Assembly (NCBI RefSeq): GCF_013816785.1
Contig: NZ_JACDDV010000005.1
Span: 1-64,000 of the forward strand
Direction: 5' to 3'
DNA: 64,000 bases
From: Sphingomonas sp.
GTDB taxonomy: Bacteria; Pseudomonadota; Alphaproteobacteria; Sphingomonadales; Sphingomonadaceae
Shown here: positions 48,631 through 55,693 of the stretch, piece by piece
How the letters are laid out: each line of letters begins with the position of its first letter
Position numbering within the stretch: position 1 is the stretch's first letter
Notes under the pieces: model-generated
What the model was told of the DNA's origin: nothing
What the model saw: the letters and a program-made list of their open reading frames with translations, nothing else
The model's database searches: none
Made by a program: the position numbers and the translations under genes

Positions 48631-49335
48631 TTAGCCGCGGTCGCGGCTAAGCTCGTCGACCTCGGCCATGATTTCCTGAAGCGCGGTCTTGTCGGGATTG
48701 GTTTTGTGCTGCCGCCGCGAGGGCAGCTTTCCCCCGCTGAGCAGAGCCTCTAACGCGACCCTCCCGCGCGCCACGCGACTCTTGATCGTGCCGACCGCGC
48801 AGCCACATATCTCGGCTGCTTCTTCATAAGCGAAACCGCCCGCGCCGACCAGGATCAGCGCCTCGCGTTGCGGTTGCGGCAGGTGGAGCAGGGCGCGTTG
48901 CATGTCGCCCAGTTCGACGTGCCGGTCCTGACTGGCGGGGGCGGCGAGAATCTTGGCGGCGGTGACATCGTCCCACTCGCCCTTGAACCGCGCGCGGCGC
49001 ATCTGGCTCAAAAACAGGTTGCGAAGAATGATGAATGTCCAGGCGCGCATGTTGGTCCCGGCCTGGAACCGAAGCCTCGCCGCCCAGGCCTTGAGCAGCG
49101 TTTCCTGAACCAAGTCGTCGGCAAGATCGCGGCTGCCCGAAAGCGAACGGCCGAACGCGCGCAGATGGGGAATGACCTGCGCCAGCTGTTCCTTGAATTC
49201 GTTGTCGGGCAGCGGCACCGGTTCGGGGCGCGGTCCCTCTTCGACTTCATCGTCGTCGGAATCGTTCACAGGAATCCGCCCCGCTTTTGCCTCGGCCGTC
49301 CTGACAGCCTCGGCCTTGTGATACGCACCAGCCAT
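48631..49335 (-). CDS. ecfG: general stress response sigma factor EcfG
   Basis: 234-residue ECF sigma factor of the EcfG class, the output of the alphaproteobacterial general stress response. Region 2 is VIPHLRAFGRSLSGSRDLADD and AWTFIILRNLFLSQMRRARF; region 4 is LPQPQREALILVGAGGFAYE with HTH EAAEICGCAVGTIKSRVARG. An acidic, unusual N-terminal extension (DSDDDEVEEGPRPEP) precedes region 2, and a basic tail follows region 4. NepR (50690-50896) holds EcfG inactive; PhyR-P releases it. It lies 12 bases behind a small membrane protein gene and is probably transcribed from the EcfG promoter at 49516-49541, i.e. autoregulated. Confidence 0.93.
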   Translation of the reverse strand: MAGAYHKAEAVRTAEAKAGRIPVNDSDDDEVEEGPRPEPVPLPDNEFKEQLAQVIPHLRAFGRSLSGSRDLADDLVQETLLKAWAARLRFQAGTNMRAWTFIILRNLFLSQMRRARFKGEWDDVTAAKILAAPASQDRHVELGDMQRALLHLPQPQREALILVGAGGFAYEEAAEICGCAVGTIKSRVARGRVALEALLSGGKLPSRRQHKTNPDKTALQEIMAEVDELSRDRG

Positions 49336-49347
49336 CAATGTAGGGGC

Positions 49348-49485
49348 TTAGCGGGCGACGAACAATATGACGGCAAAGATTGCAATTACGAGCAACAGGC
49401 CACCGCCAAGGACAAGCCGCATGCTCTTTGGTCCCGTTCCCTCGCGCGCCTCGGTCCCGGTCAGATGTTCCGGCTGATCGTCCAT
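49348..49485 (-). CDS. 45-residue single-pass membrane protein upstream of ecfG
   Basis: MDDQPEHLTGTEAREGTGPK is followed by SMRLVLGGGLLLVIAIFAVI and ends LFVAR: a short polar N-terminus and one clear transmembrane helix to the C-terminus. GGGAAC provides a ribosome-binding site. Its stop is 12 bases before the ecfG ATG, and a perfect EcfG-type promoter (49516-49541) lies 31 bases upstream of its start, so it is probably transcribed with ecfG under stress control. Too short for routine gene callers. Function unknown; an envelope protein of the stress response is the simplest reading. Confidence 0.7.
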   Translation of the reverse strand: MDDQPEHLTGTEAREGTGPKSMRLVLGGGLLLVIAIFAVILFVAR

Positions 49486-49515: not shown

Positions 49516-49541
49516 AACGCAGCGCGACTCGTACCGGTTCC
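49516..49541 (-). promoter_or_regulatory. EcfG-type promoter of the small membrane protein and ecfG
   Basis: On the minus strand GGAAC (49541-49537), 17 bases and CGTT (49519-49516): an exact match to the EcfG consensus GGAAC-N16/17-CGTT. The predicted transcription start is about 23 bases before the small gene's ATG. Confidence 0.8.
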
Positions 49542-49587: not shown

Positions 49588-50388
49588 TCAGCCGGCGGGA
49601 ACGGTCGCGGCGTCGAAAAACAAAGCCTGGCTGATCGCCGCCTTGACCGTCGAGCGCTGAAAAGGCTTGGTGATCAGGAAGGTCGGCTCGGGCCGAGTGC
49701 CGGTCAACAGTCGCTCGGGAAAGGCGGTAATGAAGATCACCGGCACCGAGAATTCGGCGAGAATGTCTTTGACCGCGTCGATTCCGGAGCTGTCGTCGGC
49801 CAACTGGATATCGGCCAGCACGAGCCCCGGCGGCGACTTGCGCGCCTGGGTCACCGCTTCGTCCCGGGTGACGGCAACGCCGGTCACGTTGTGGCCAAGA
49901 TCGCGAACGATCGATTCGATGTCCATCGCAATGATGGGCTCGTCCTCGATGATCAGCACATCGGCGTGAGTCTGCCGCTCAATTTCCTCCATTGCCTCGG
50001 CGACCAGATTCTCGACGTCATCGGGCGAAGCCGAGATCAGATAGGCGGTGTCGTCGCTGGAAAAGCCCTCGAGGCTGGTCAGCAGCAAGGCTTGGCGCGA
50101 CAGAGGCGTTATCCGTGACAGGCGTGCCTGCGCGATGCCCTCATGGCCGCCAAGGCTGGTGGTCGGCTCCTCGCCCTCCTCGATATTGGCGCTCGACCAG
50201 ATCGCGTGGAAGGTGCGGTAAAGTCCGAGGCGCGGCTCGATCTCGGTTGGAAATTCCTCTGGCCCCGCGACGATCGTCTCCAGAGTCGCACGAACGAAGG
50301 CGTCGCCATGCGCCTGGCTTCCGGTCAGGGCGCGCGCATAACGGCGAAGAAAGGGCAGATGCGGTGCGAGTTCTTGACCCAACGACAT
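49588..50388 (-). CDS. phyR: general stress response regulator PhyR
   Basis: 266 residues. The sigma-factor-like domain (1-130; MSLGQELAPHLPFLRRYARA, TPLSRQALLLTSLEGFSS) mimics an ECF sigma factor and binds NepR once the C-terminal receiver domain is phosphorylated. Receiver features: VLIIEDEPIIAMDIESIV, phosphoacceptor D193 in GLVLADIQLAD, and FLITKPFQRST. The start at 50388 yields the canonical N-terminus; an upstream in-frame Met at 50472 adds 28 residues lacking family similarity. Divergent from nepR, as in other sphingomonads. Confidence 0.95.
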   Translation of the reverse strand: MSLGQELAPHLPFLRRYARALTGSQAHGDAFVRATLETIVAGPEEFPTEIEPRLGLYRTFHAIWSSANIEEGEEPTTSLGGHEGIAQARLSRITPLSRQALLLTSLEGFSSDDTAYLISASPDDVENLVAEAMEEIERQTHADVLIIEDEPIIAMDIESIVRDLGHNVTGVAVTRDEAVTQARKSPPGLVLADIQLADDSSGIDAVKDILAEFSVPVIFITAFPERLLTGTRPEPTFLITKPFQRSTVKAAISQALFFDAATVPAG

Positions 50389-50689
50389 AAAAAGATGGTC
50401 TCCGCTAAATTCGTTAAATCGCTCGGCGTCCGTTGTGGGCGCGCCGAAGCGGTGGCGCAACCCTGTAGCCAAGCGATGAATGACCTTTCAATGGCCCACA
50501 CCCATGCCCCAAGTTCGCGCAAGGTGGAACAAAGCACTGGCGATTTGGTTTCCTGCTTCGCTACCTCGGTCCCAATAGAAGTCGCGCATTGACGGGGCCG
50601 TGTGGCGGGCGATAGGTTCGGTGTCGTTCCCGAGGTCGTACCTCTCGGTCGGCTTTGCGCCCAGTGAGTTTTCAAAAGGATTGGCGCAT
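50389..50689. other. 301-base divergent control region between phyR and nepR
   Basis: Contains the promoter regions of phyR and nepR. A candidate EcfG-type site on the plus strand is at 50526-50550. AAAGGA before the nepR ATG is its ribosome-binding site. No other structure was recognised. Confidence 0.6.
50526..50550 (+). promoter_or_regulatory. candidate EcfG-type promoter of nepR
   Basis: GGAAC (50526-50530), 16 bases, GGTT (50547-50550), 140 bases before nepR. One base off the -10 consensus; the long leader is a weakness. Confidence 0.5.
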
Positions 50690-50896
50690 ATGCTCGTGCG
50701 CGAGGGGGACGAGAGGTTGAGTGGTACTGAAAAAGCCAGCGGCGACCGCGTTTCCGGCAAACCCGGCGCTTCCGCTCCCCAAAAGCGCAAGGTCAAGTCC
50801 GGCACGGTGGGTCGCGCCCTCCGCACCGTCTACGACGATATGCTGCGCGAAGAGGTTCCCACGGATTTCCTCGACCTTCTTGGCAAGCTCGACTGA
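50690..50896 (+). CDS. nepR: anti-sigma factor NepR
   Basis: 68-residue NepR. The C-terminal conserved part VGRALRTVYDDMLREEVP followed by TDFLDLLGKL is diagnostic: its two helices grip EcfG regions 2 and 4. The N-terminal half is disordered and basic (KPGASAPQKRKVKSG). The start at 50690 has an AAAGGA ribosome-binding site. Under stress, phosphorylated PhyR takes NepR away from EcfG. It is 18 bases upstream of the kinase-like gene, forming a nepR-kinase operon. Confidence 0.93.
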   Translation: MLVREGDERLSGTEKASGDRVSGKPGASAPQKRKVKSGTVGRALRTVYDDMLREEVPTDFLDLLGKLD

Positions 50897-50914: not shown

Positions 50915-52459
50915 ATGGCGGTAAACGACGGCTTTTCGGGCTTGATCGCCCGCCTCCCGACTCCGGCCAAGATTCTCCTGATTCTCAGCTTGGCCTTGCT
51001 GCCCCTTGGGGTGGCCAGCGCATGGTCGGCGGCACGTGGACTCGAAGCCGCCAACCACGCCCTCGACGAGCGGTCTCGCGACCAGGCTCGCGTCGCAGCT
51101 GAATCCATGGAAAGCTTGATCGCCCGAAACACCCTGGCGGTTCGGGTCGCTGCCAATGCCGTGCTTTCCGCTCCTCCGGGAGAACACTGCGCCGAAATGC
51201 AGCGCATCCTGGGCATCGCGCCGGCGGTCGGCCGCGAGTTCGCGCTGCTCGACGACGGCGGCCGGCAATTGTGCAGGGTCGGCGACCTGATGCCGCCCGT
51301 CCCCCTCGGCCGCATCGCCCCCGGCGATTTCAGCCTGTGGGCGTCGACCACCAAAGACGCGATAATCGTTCGCGCGGGCGTGGTGCTCGGGTCCACGCTG
51401 GTGCGCGTGCCGACCGTCGATTTGCGAGATGCAGTCGTATCGAAAGGCGTGCCGTTCGGCGGGGTGACGCTGATCGCCGCCGGCCAGGAGTTGGTCGTCA
51501 TCCCGAACAAGGGCGGCAGCGGCCGGATCGTGGAGACGGTGCCGCTCGCGTCGAACCAGGTCGAGGCGCGGATTTCGGTGAGCCGTCTCAATATCCCGAC
51601 GCTCGACCGGCTGTTCATCTTCCTGCCGTTGCTGATGTGGGCTGCGGCAGCGATCATCAGCTGGTGGATGGTCCATCGCCTGCTCATCCGCCCGCTGCGG
51701 CGGCTGCAGGGCGCGGTGGTCGATTATCGGCCGGGCGACGGTCAGTCGCTGGCCATTCCGGAAAGCCTCGGCCCGGCGAGGGAAATCCATGAACTGGGCG
51801 ACGCGTTCCAACGCGCGGTCCAACGGATCGAAGATGCTGAACACGAGGCGCGCGAAGCGCTGGAGGGACAGCGGCGGCTGGTGCGCGAGGTCCACCATCG
51901 GGTGAAGAACAACCTGCAGGTGGTCGCGTCGCTTCTCTCGATCCACGGGCGCAGCGCCGAAGATCGCCAGGCCAAGGCCGCATATTCCTCGATCGGTCGG
52001 CGGGTCGATGCCCTGTCGGTCGTCCACCGCAATCATTATGCCGAGCTTGAGGAGAATCGCGGCATCGCGCTCCGCCCGCTGCTCACCGAGCTTTCCGCAG
52101 GGCTGAAGGCAAGCGCCCCGGCCGAGGCCCGCAAGATCCTCGTCGAACTGGAGCTTGATTCCGTCTCGACCACCCAGGACGTCGCCGTCGCCGCGGCCTT
52201 CCTGATCACCGAAATGGTGGAGTTCGCGATGTTGCGGGCGCCGGCCGACCCGATCGACATTTCGCTTCGCCGGGAAAGCGAACTGACGGCATCACTGTCG
52301 ATCAGCGCATCGGTACTGGTTCCGGACGCCGACACGTCTGAGATCAGCAAGCAGCAGTTCGAACGGATCGTCGAGGGATTGGCGCGGCAGCTGCGCTCAC
52401 CTCTCGAGCGCAAGCTCGGCCGCTACACCGTAACATTGCCGATATTCCCCGATCGTTGA
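50915..52459 (+). CDS. HisKA_2-type sensor kinase homologue with degenerate ATPase domain (PhyP-like)
   Basis: 514 residues. Two transmembrane helices (about 18-38 and 233-255) flank a periplasmic sensor of about 190 residues; a HAMP segment follows (255-305). The HisKA_2 dimerisation motif REVHHRVKNNLQVVASL carries H328. The C-terminal region shows the remains of an HWE/HisKA_2 ATPase, but the N-box Asn is replaced (ITEMVEFAMLRA, versus the usual TELVTNALKH) and no DxGxG motif is seen. It fits PhyP of Sphingomonas, a negative regulator acting as a phosphatase on PhyR. So it probably removes phosphate from PhyR rather than adding it (inference from the missing motifs). Confidence 0.87.
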   Translation: MAVNDGFSGLIARLPTPAKILLILSLALLPLGVASAWSAARGLEAANHALDERSRDQARVAAESMESLIARNTLAVRVAANAVLSAPPGEHCAEMQRILGIAPAVGREFALLDDGGRQLCRVGDLMPPVPLGRIAPGDFSLWASTTKDAIIVRAGVVLGSTLVRVPTVDLRDAVVSKGVPFGGVTLIAAGQELVVIPNKGGSGRIVETVPLASNQVEARISVSRLNIPTLDRLFIFLPLLMWAAAAIISWWMVHRLLIRPLRRLQGAVVDYRPGDGQSLAIPESLGPAREIHELGDAFQRAVQRIEDAEHEAREALEGQRRLVREVHHRVKNNLQVVASLLSIHGRSAEDRQAKAAYSSIGRRVDALSVVHRNHYAELEENRGIALRPLLTELSAGLKASAPAEARKILVELELDSVSTTQDVAVAAAFLITEMVEFAMLRAPADPIDISLRRESELTASLSISASVLVPDADTSEISKQQFERIVEGLARQLRSPLERKLGRYTVTLPIFPDR

Positions 52460-52510
52460 CCGCCGTTTCCCGGCTATGATTGAGCGATTGTATTTTTTTT
52501 GAAGAAGAAC

Positions 52511-52536
52511 GGAACCGACTGCGAAAAGCGGACGTT
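52511..52536 (+). promoter_or_regulatory. EcfG-type promoter without a downstream protein gene
   Basis: GGAAC (52511-52515), 17 bases, CGTT (52533-52536): exact consensus on the plus strand, 51 bases after the kinase stop. The next gene on the plus strand is over 3 kb away. It points at the hairpin pair at 52544-52638. Confidence 0.75.
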
Positions 52537-52542
52537 TTACAA

Positions 52543-52645
52543 GTCGGATAGCGACCTTTTGCCCCCCCGCTCTCGCTATCCGATTACATGGGCCCGGAAC
52601 CGCCAACCCTTCCCCCCCCGGTGGCGTTTCCGGGCCCACATTCGT
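52543..52645 (+). ncRNA. candidate EcfG-dependent small RNA with C-rich loops
   Basis: Predicted to start near 52543, seven bases after the EcfG -10. Hairpin 1: TCGGATAGCGA (52544-52554) pairs perfectly with TCGCTATCCGA (52573-52583), with a seven-C run in its loop. Hairpin 2: arms at 52589-52605 and 52622-52638, 17 pairs with one mismatch, with an eight-C run in its loop. C-rich loops could pair with Shine-Dalgarno sequences, as GsrN of Caulobacter does. Both hairpins are equally present on the minus strand just after the tatC stop, so a role in tatC 3'-end formation is an alternative. No U-run follows hairpin 2; the 3' end is uncertain. Confidence 0.6.
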
Positions 52646-53428
52646 CTAGGCCCCTTCCACATCACCGATTGAGGTTGCCCGCGCCCGGCGCGACGCGCGC
52701 CAGTGCGTAACGCGAATGGCGAGTAGCGCGAGTTCATAGAGGCCGTAAAGCGGCACCAGCAGCAGCAGCATCGAAACGACGTCCGGCGGGGTCAGCACGG
52801 CCGACACCGCAGCCGCAGCGACGATCGCATAACGCCGCGACCCGGCGAGTTGCTCGCGCGTGACGATCCCGGCGCGCTCGAGGATCATCAGGAGGACCGG
52901 CAGGAGGAAGGCGACCCCGAAGCCGAACAGGAAACGGGTAACGAAATTCAGGTAATTGCCGATCGCCGGCAGCGCCTCCTGCGTCACCCCGCCGACATTG
53001 CCGCCGAAGCCGAGCAGAAACTTGAGCGCCCACGGCATCGCCACATAATAAGCGAAGCACGCGCCAGCGGCGAAGAAGAACGGGGTCATCAGCAGGAACG
53101 GCAGAAATGCCTTCTTTTCGGTCTTGTACATGCCGGGCGCGACGAACCGCCATATCTGTGTCGCCAGCACCGGAAAGCTCAGCATCAACGCGGCGAAGAA
53201 AGCCACCTTCACCTCGACGAAAAACGCCTCGAACAGGTCGGTGTAGATTAGCTTGCCCTGCCCGGCGCGGAGCAAAGGCTGGACCAGAATGGCAAATATT
53301 GGTTTGGCGAAATAGAGGCAGGCGAAGAACCCTACCCCCATTGTCGCGACGCACCAAAGCAGGCGGCGACGAAGCTCGATCAGATGCTCGAGCAGCGGCG
53401 CCTTGCTGTCGTCAATGTCACCGATCAT
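52646..53428 (-). CDS. tatC: Sec-independent protein translocase TatC
   Basis: 260-residue TatC with six transmembrane helices; it recognises twin-arginine signal peptides and docks TatA/TatB. The N-terminal cytoplasmic motif APLLEHLIELRRRLLW contains the conserved EL/ELR residues; helix 1 is MGVGFFACLYFAKPIF, followed by a large periplasmic loop and the segment LFGFGVAFLLPVLLMILERAG. It overlaps tatB by ATGA at 53425. It is the last gene of the scpA-scpB-tatA-tatB-tatC unit. The exported ferritin-like proteins at 6015-7871 are likely clients. Confidence 0.96.
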   Translation of the reverse strand: MIGDIDDSKAPLLEHLIELRRRLLWCVATMGVGFFACLYFAKPIFAILVQPLLRAGQGKLIYTDLFEAFFVEVKVAFFAALMLSFPVLATQIWRFVAPGMYKTEKKAFLPFLLMTPFFFAAGACFAYYVAMPWALKFLLGFGGNVGGVTQEALPAIGNYLNFVTRFLFGFGVAFLLPVLLMILERAGIVTREQLAGSRRYAIVAAAAVSAVLTPPDVVSMLLLLVPLYGLYELALLAIRVTHWRASRRARATSIGDVEGA

Positions 53429-55458: not shown

Positions 55459-55693
55459 CGTGGACAGCGTAGAAGAAAATTCGAGGCGGGTGAACGCCCC
55501 TCCACTCCCCGTCGCGATCAGAGGATGCAACGGCGCTCTTTTCGACTCGTAGGGGATCTGGCCGGGACCCACGCTTGTCCGGCGGGGCACCCTCTGCTAC
55601 GAATTGATTAACCCCCTTTGCATGCGTGCTTGCGGTCAGCCCGCTTAGTTCCCCGTGAAGAGCTATGCCAATCAGCGACAGGGAGAAAAGTCG

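Follow-up and report, generated by a model that had tools for sequence, protein, structure and literature searches.

The stretch of DNA analysed here (the window) comprises 64,000 nucleotides of a Sphingomonas sp. contig (NZ_JACDDV010000005.1), and the features of interest are collected in Table 1. A putative RNA element sits 3' of the same-strand nepR-phyK pair, and the opposite strand encodes phyR and ecfG close by. The nepR frame is listed from a GTG codon, and its real start probably lies further in. Between ecfG and the second promoter-like site on the minus strand there is also an ORF for a membrane-bound-looking peptide of 45 residues (49348-49485), for which Pfam gave no match. A preliminary description of this region had claimed an exact EcfG-type promoter, two long hairpins with 11 perfect pairs and with 17 pairs including one mismatch, loops of seven and eight C, and a lack of any plus-strand protein gene for 3 kb. 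We verified the coordinates and the match of the promoter and the coordinates of both hairpins and their loops, and found that the next plus-strand ORF judged to be genuine starts at 55655.

Table 1. Positions of the stress-locus genes and of the elements that make up the predicted RNA gene in the window.
Feature	Position	Strand	Basis or remark
ecfG sigma factor (approximate start)	48631..49248	-	PF04542, PF08281
Second GGAACC-N16-CGTT site	49516..49541	-	Upstream of the 45-aa ORF and ecfG
phyR (approximate start)	49588..50394	-	PF22029, PF22233, PF00072
nepR, anti-sigma factor	50600..50896	+	PF18557 NepR, E 1.7e-9
phyK-like HWE/HisKA_2 histidine kinase	50915..52459	+	PF07568, PF07536
EcfG-type promoter GGAAC-N17-CGTT	52511..52536	+	Exact match; GGAAC 52511-52515, CGTT 52533-52536
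Predicted small RNA, about 105-110 nt	52541..52650	+	Ends estimated
Hairpin 1, C7 loop (52562-52568)	52544..52583	+	Arms 52544-52554/52573-52583, 11 perfect pairs
Hairpin 2, C8 loop (52612-52619)	52589..52638	+	Arms 52589-52605/52622-52638, 17 positions, one mismatch
Tail after hairpin 2	52639..52650	+	Weakly T-rich in own genome; runs antisense into the 3' end of tatC
tatC, convergent with the RNA gene	52646..53428	-	PF00902

The region 52530-52660 has a predicted folding energy of -57.4 kcal/mol, which corresponds to z = -6.6 relative to 200 dinucleotide shuffles, and a covariance model of the element (R1, described below) matches 52537-52659 at 135 bits; the exact ends of the small RNA in Table 1 are those that we infer. 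Hairpin 2 probably doubles as the stem of a terminator. No canonical intrinsic terminator was called at 52400-52720 of the window, and among 100 homologues the T fraction at +3 to +8 after hairpin 2 was 0.63-0.78, compared with a background of 0.21.

Using BLASTN with the region as query, we found the element in 69 of 71 genomes of the window's genus, its own genome included, and both of the negative genomes are incomplete (77% and 79%). A single match was obtained in 67 of the 69 positive genomes; the other two (G052 and G056) gave two matches each, one of those in G056 being cut by a contig end. Across the family, BLASTN was positive in 118 of 397 sampled genomes. The covariance model R1, which was built from 54 homologues and cut to begin just 3' of the -10 box, raised this figure to 155 of 397 at E 0.01, distributed over 43 of 96 genera. 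When applied to 289 genomes of the class, R1 matched two family members and four marginal others, and its marginal matches were re-examined where a broader model (R2) found them too. R2 in turn matched three family members and eight others in the 289 class genomes, and none of the nine loci from the eight genomes of other families possessed an EcfG promoter of at least 8 of 9 letters. Among 40 family genomes negative for R1, 18 were matched by R2, and five of these loci have the promoter (L216, L217, L220, L223 and L228); the remaining 13 are taken to be mostly other C-rich hairpins. Since the large R1 and R2 searches scored 8 to 12 candidates per genome, absences are soft. As far as these searches reach, the RNA appears to be a trait of the Sphingomonadaceae. 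One locus from a genome of another family (L207 in G581, 1501-1615) has two hairpins with C7 and CCUCCCCC loops and no EcfG promoter, and similar C-loop RNAs may therefore exist elsewhere in the class under different control.

The sequence sets used below were assembled as follows. Among 107 loci, 12 had no BLASTN match, nine of these being Sphingopyxis loci that were later recovered by R1. The 95 BLASTN matches were reduced to 76 by dropping identical rows, short rows and rows with N, and one more was without anchor; 92 sequences were reduced to 54 by a 95% identity cut. Alignment A2 contained 114 R1 matches; a stricter cut-off removed 14 weaker ones, which were secondary or came from the complementary strand of loci already represented, and gave alignment A3. 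The 100 homologues were chosen from the loci collected, mostly one per genome (three genomes gave two each), with at least 10 from the window's genus and every match at E 1e-6.

Taken by itself the EcfG motif is weak evidence, since its occurrence in the window could be due to chance. The pattern GGAACN{15,18}CGTT was found four times against 1.62 +/- 1.14 expected (5 of 100 shuffles reach 4), and the stricter GGAACC-N16-CGTT was found twice, where 0.14 would be expected and a single shuffle in 100 has two, these two sites being the RNA promoter and the minus-strand site upstream of ecfG. The preliminary description had regarded the placement of the promoter as the telling point, and in our analysis too it is location and conservation that carry the weight. 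A promoter of 8 or 9 of 9 letters precedes 94 of the 100 homologues, compared with 3 of 2000 shuffled upstream regions, at a distance constant within 3 bases. Many of the 100 homologues were first found by BLASTN with a query that contained the promoter; R1 excludes it, so that promoter presence at R1 loci is a separate test, and 15 of the 18 loci missed by that BLASTN query nonetheless have the promoter. In an earlier set found by BLAST it was exact in 63 of 75 sequences, with varying spacer letters. Six of the 100 fall short of 8 letters (L195, L164, L157, L162, L149 and L163), and in L157 and L162 a GGAAC...GTT is visible that extends beyond the scanned span, both having been counted as misses. 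The element carries GGAAC-N16/17-CGTT at a fixed distance, the arrangement that we took as the mark of the EcfG regulon, and judging by this motif it is apparently EcfG, the stress sigma factor, that activates the RNA gene.

Both C-runs are at least 5 long in 96 of the 100 homologues and at least 6 long in 93, with lengths of 6-8 and 5-10 in most family members, and in the alignment of 54 sequences conservation extends to the letters on either side of loop 1. The stems, on the other hand, change freely while keeping their pairing. Covariation over the 100 homologues was 0.447, compared with 0.176 for shuffled and at most 0.087 for slid alignments, and double changes occur in all 28 pairs (9 of 9 in hairpin 1, 19 of 19 in hairpin 2). 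Being fitted to the model, this alignment is biased in its favour, and for that reason we also counted a MAFFT alignment of the 54 sequences, where covariation was 0.175 (shuffled, 0.114; slid, no more than 0.073), and changes on both sides were seen in 20 of 32 pairs. Covariation of the stems and conservation of the C-runs were the checks that had been proposed at the outset, and both came out in favour of a structured RNA. As to strand, G-U cells outnumber A-C cells by 64 to 11 in one count and by 126 to 33 in a second, which points to the plus strand as the RNA. Conservation merely as part of the tatC 3' end on the minus strand, the outcome that had been named as fatal to a small RNA, is further contradicted by the other genera in which an entericidin gene lies between the RNA and tatC, and by a second copy situated elsewhere. 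This copy (L147 in G292, 1313-1453) shares an identical 22-base stretch at loop 1, has a different stem and an EcfG promoter of its own, and its second hairpin is T-tailed as judged by eye.

The surroundings of the RNA differ among genera. A same-strand ORF for an entericidin-type lipoprotein, recognised by its lipobox pattern, lies 3' of the RNA in 43 of 82 distinct loci, and the one such ORF that was tested contains PF08085. Loci of this kind, with the ORF about 100-190 nt downstream, include L049, L052, L056, L068-L072, L074, L076, L079, L085, L089, L091-L093 and L095-L107. The 39 of 82 loci without the ORF belong to the window's genus, to some named records whose genus was unmapped, and to another genus (L090). 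An exact EcfG promoter precedes entericidin in 0 of 43 loci; a relaxed scan detected EcfG-like promoters of 8 of 9 letters between the RNA and entericidin in 32 of 34 loci outside Sphingopyxis, the other two scoring 7 and 6, where the best scores of shuffles average 6.3 over 38 loci. These promoters read GGAAC-N16/17 with CATT, GGTT or TGTT as the usual -10, and flexibility of the -10 box is the subject of a section in an EcfG paper on S. granuli (PMC7083833, seen in part). In nearly all scanned cases the RNA and entericidin form a tandem of two EcfG-like units. Within the window's genus entericidin is absent at the RNA locus and the RNA is retained with tatC close behind, which argues for a function of the RNA itself.

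Sphingopyxis departs from this arrangement. At its loci the entericidin ORF begins about 30-35 nt after hairpin 2, no phyK match was found, and four scanned loci gave no promoter between the RNA and the ORF; upstream of the RNA, at the one Sphingopyxis locus examined there, lies a gene that we take to be mgtE-like. Given this spacing and the lack of an intervening promoter, the RNA may double there as a leader. A dRNA-seq study on SuhB in Sphingopyxis, cited in the literature, may contain reads for the RNA. In most of the loci examined outside Sphingopyxis, the RNA looks from its sequence context like a separate unit.

No Rfam family reached its gathering score in the window. Scr3202 of Streptomyces (RF02833) gave 38.1 bits (E 2.4e-4) against a gathering score of 52, in a full-length match that spans both hairpins. 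As a true homologue it was rejected, 0 of 190 class genomes (own genome included) having a match, although control genomes were also without match and this result has little weight. The 6C family (RF01066) reached 17.8 bits against 47 in the window and 36.1 bits in the best homologue seen (L155), and alpha-r14 (RF02344) reached 11.2 bits against 58.8 in the window, with 38.3 and 36.5 bits in two diverged homologues, the best among 13 loci scanned.

In terms of architecture three known RNAs are similar. According to the portions of PMC5869019 that we drew on, GsrN of Caulobacter has an EcfG/sigma-T-type promoter, a length of about 100 nt, a C-rich 5' loop that pairs with the katG leader and a 3' terminator, and its homologues typically adjoin the stress locus, as does the element here. 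The Sphingomonadaceae RNA has the EcfG-type promoter and the exposed C-rich loop on the 5' hairpin that characterise GsrN, but differs in bearing long C-runs on both hairpins. Outside the family, none of the R2 matches in the 289 class genomes was accompanied by the promoter; the presence of Caulobacteraceae in this set is not assured. Erythrobacter litoralis is itself a member of the Sphingomonadales. Searches described in PMC5869019 (in part) placed GsrN-like RNAs in Caulobacteraceae and Rhizobiaceae, with no apparent gsrN-like gene reported there for the outgroup E. litoralis.

The alpha-r14/NfeR1 RNAs resemble the element in their constant C-rich anti-Shine-Dalgarno loops on freely changing stems, in having redundant seeds and in targeting the translation start (excerpts of PMC10746234 and PMC3927594), and NfeR1 masks ntrB through its redundant loops (PMC10746234, in excerpt). 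They differ in that alpha-r14 consists of three hairpins with CCUCCUCCC, whereas the Sphingomonadaceae RNA has two (C7 and C8 in the window) and an EcfG promoter. At one locus (L155) the two hairpins are closely followed by a third (1418-1450 minus), which has a C-rich loop and a T-tail, and this locus resembles a three-hairpin alpha-r14 RNA. The actinobacterial 6C/B11 RNAs are likewise about 100 nt long with two hairpins each bearing about six or more C (PMC4046766, in part), and two hairpins with loops of six or more C are also what we found in the window; in mycobacterial B11 either C-rich loop alone represses a leader with a six-G tract (PMC10470900, in part). These RNAs belong to another phylum and the scores fall below gathering, and the likeness is probably convergent.

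Among the literature matches listed, the RNA is not named in titles or abstract openings. By term search, the main text of a sphingomonad stress-transcriptome paper (PMC6599016) treats no sRNA, and PMC7083833 has no mention of sRNA, with non-coding RNA confined to its reference list. The RNA family is a proven member of none of GsrN, NfeR1 and 6C, and it is best read as a new sequence family of EcfG-driven two-loop C-rich sRNAs that would work like GsrN, NfeR1/alpha-r14 and 6C/B11.

To look for candidate targets we searched the own genome for GGGGGG-N3-10-ATG, which gave 69 sites compared with 17 for the reversed pattern, a poor control in that ATG reversed is GTA. The complement of loop 1, GCGGGGGGGC, gave no signal in the own genome (5 sites, one being the RNA gene, against 6 for the reversed sequence). 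The G6 sites were sorted and their products named by eye, and plausible starts included two TonB-receptor-like genes, an autotransporter and several transporters. Pfam confirmed the first TonB receptor and the autotransporter; for the second TonB-like gene, of which the first 60 residues were scanned, it returned no domain. Within the genus, 52 of 71 genomes have a match to the first TonB receptor (E 1e-80). A start was available at 29 of 30 loci (L280-L309), and its ribosome site carries a G-run of at least 4 in 29 of 29 and of at least 5 in 20 of 29; the gene had been picked for its G6 in the own genome, so that the other 28 genomes are the test, and there a run of at least 5 was found in 19 of 28. 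By comparison, control starts (tatA, tatB, tatC, scpB, phyR, phyK and ecfG) have G-runs of at least 4 in 8 of 173 cases and of at least 5 in 0 of 173, this control being soft because some of the genes overlap or closely follow another one and the starts were assigned automatically. For ORFs of at least 250 residues in the own genome the figures are 11 of 139 and 5 of 139. The autotransporter is weaker than the TonB receptor, with runs of at least 4 in 22 of 30 loci and of at least 5 in 5 of 30.

Duplex energies between loop and target single out neither the TonB receptor nor the autotransporter. For eight of nine candidates, an equally strong duplex is formed by 2-16% of 139 ordinary start regions, the value for the TonB receptor being 15%. 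The ninth candidate, a RodZ-like gene (L250, named by eye, start at 222), formed a stronger loop duplex than all 139 background start regions. The pairing with Shine-Dalgarno sequences put forward in the preliminary description gained one indirect support, the conserved G-run ribosome site in the TonB-receptor gene, a target that duplex energy does not set apart. Such G-rich sites might also be maintained simply for the sake of translation; on the strength of the sequence pattern we put forward the TonB-receptor mRNA as the leading candidate target.

How else might these features be explained? One alternative is that the RNA acts in cis, as the 5' leader of an entericidin mRNA that is induced by stress and controlled by the C-loops, the downstream gene having been lost in the window's genus. 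The same-strand ORF in 43 of 82 loci, the four Sphingopyxis loci where no promoter was found before it, and the Cis-reg label that Rfam gives to the similar 6C family are all consistent with this; yet in 32 of 34 loci outside Sphingopyxis entericidin is preceded by a promoter of its own, of the GGAAC-N16/17-CATT/GGTT type, the window's genus retains the RNA without entericidin and with tatC close behind, and the T-rich tail together with the L147 copy, which by eye has its own terminator, likewise speaks against a leader. As an account of the family we consider a leader improbable. We would also call it unlikely that the C-runs act as a sponge, binding a protein (e.g. Rho, a cold-shock or other C-binding protein) or capturing another RNA in place of mRNA ribosome sites. 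Two nearly pure C-loops that stay constant while the stems change would suit such a role, as would the conservation of the loop 1 flanks in the 54-sequence alignment beyond what a bare G-run target needs, but no result obtained here suggests a protein partner, and the known RNAs with such loops work by pairing, as far as the consulted parts of PMC5869019, PMC10746234 and PMC10470900 describe.

That the hairpins are a mere bidirectional terminator between the convergent phyK and tatC is suggested by their position between these genes in the window's genus and by the GC-rich hairpin 2. A terminator has no need of a promoter, of constant C-loops or of hairpin 1; in other genera a further gene precedes tatC, the Sphingopyxis loci are without phyK match, and G-U pairs dominate on the plus strand, all of which makes this explanation very unlikely. 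Finally, 1.6 copies of the promoter motif would be expected in the window in any case, and its coincidence with hairpins could in principle be due to chance or to a repeat element. With one match per genome in 67 of 69 positive genus genomes, mapped loci that adjoin phyK and tatC, and stems that are compensated, we give this almost no credence.

We therefore return to the reading that we consider likely, namely a free-standing, trans-acting sRNA of about 105-110 nt that is transcribed by EcfG and whose C7 and C8 loops mask G-run ribosome sites. What the sequence itself shows is the promoter motif, both stems and their loops, the strand, the distribution of the element and, for most loci examined outside Sphingopyxis, its standing as a separate unit; the transcript, its dependence on EcfG, the pairing, the targets and the direction of the effect are what we infer beyond it. 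The PhyR-EcfG switch is well established. Under stress PhyR would free EcfG, which would transcribe the RNA from the GGAAC-N17-CGTT promoter until transcription stops after hairpin 2. C-loops that stay constant while their stems change typify seeds, as in GsrN, NfeR1 and B11, and on this ground we propose redundant pairing with G-run ribosome sites: the C7 and C8 loops displayed by the two hairpins would be interchangeable seeds for G-runs within the translation-initiation regions of target mRNAs, where pairing would mask the ribosome-binding site. The outcome would most likely be less of the growth-phase envelope and uptake proteins.

EcfG-controlled sRNAs have been proposed to be prevalent in Alphaproteobacteria (PMC5869019, in part). 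Although speculative, and to our minds doubtful at this breadth, the RNA might represent a family-wide post-transcriptional arm of the stress response, in which outer-membrane uptake by TonB receptors and autotransporters would be switched off through G-run landing pads, and which would have arisen independently of 6C/B11. What the Sphingomonadaceae offer is a conserved and mostly single-copy candidate beside the stress genes, and with it a testable post-transcriptional arm that has a named seed and a candidate target. They may also be one more lineage in which RNAs with multiple C-rich loops arose or were kept.
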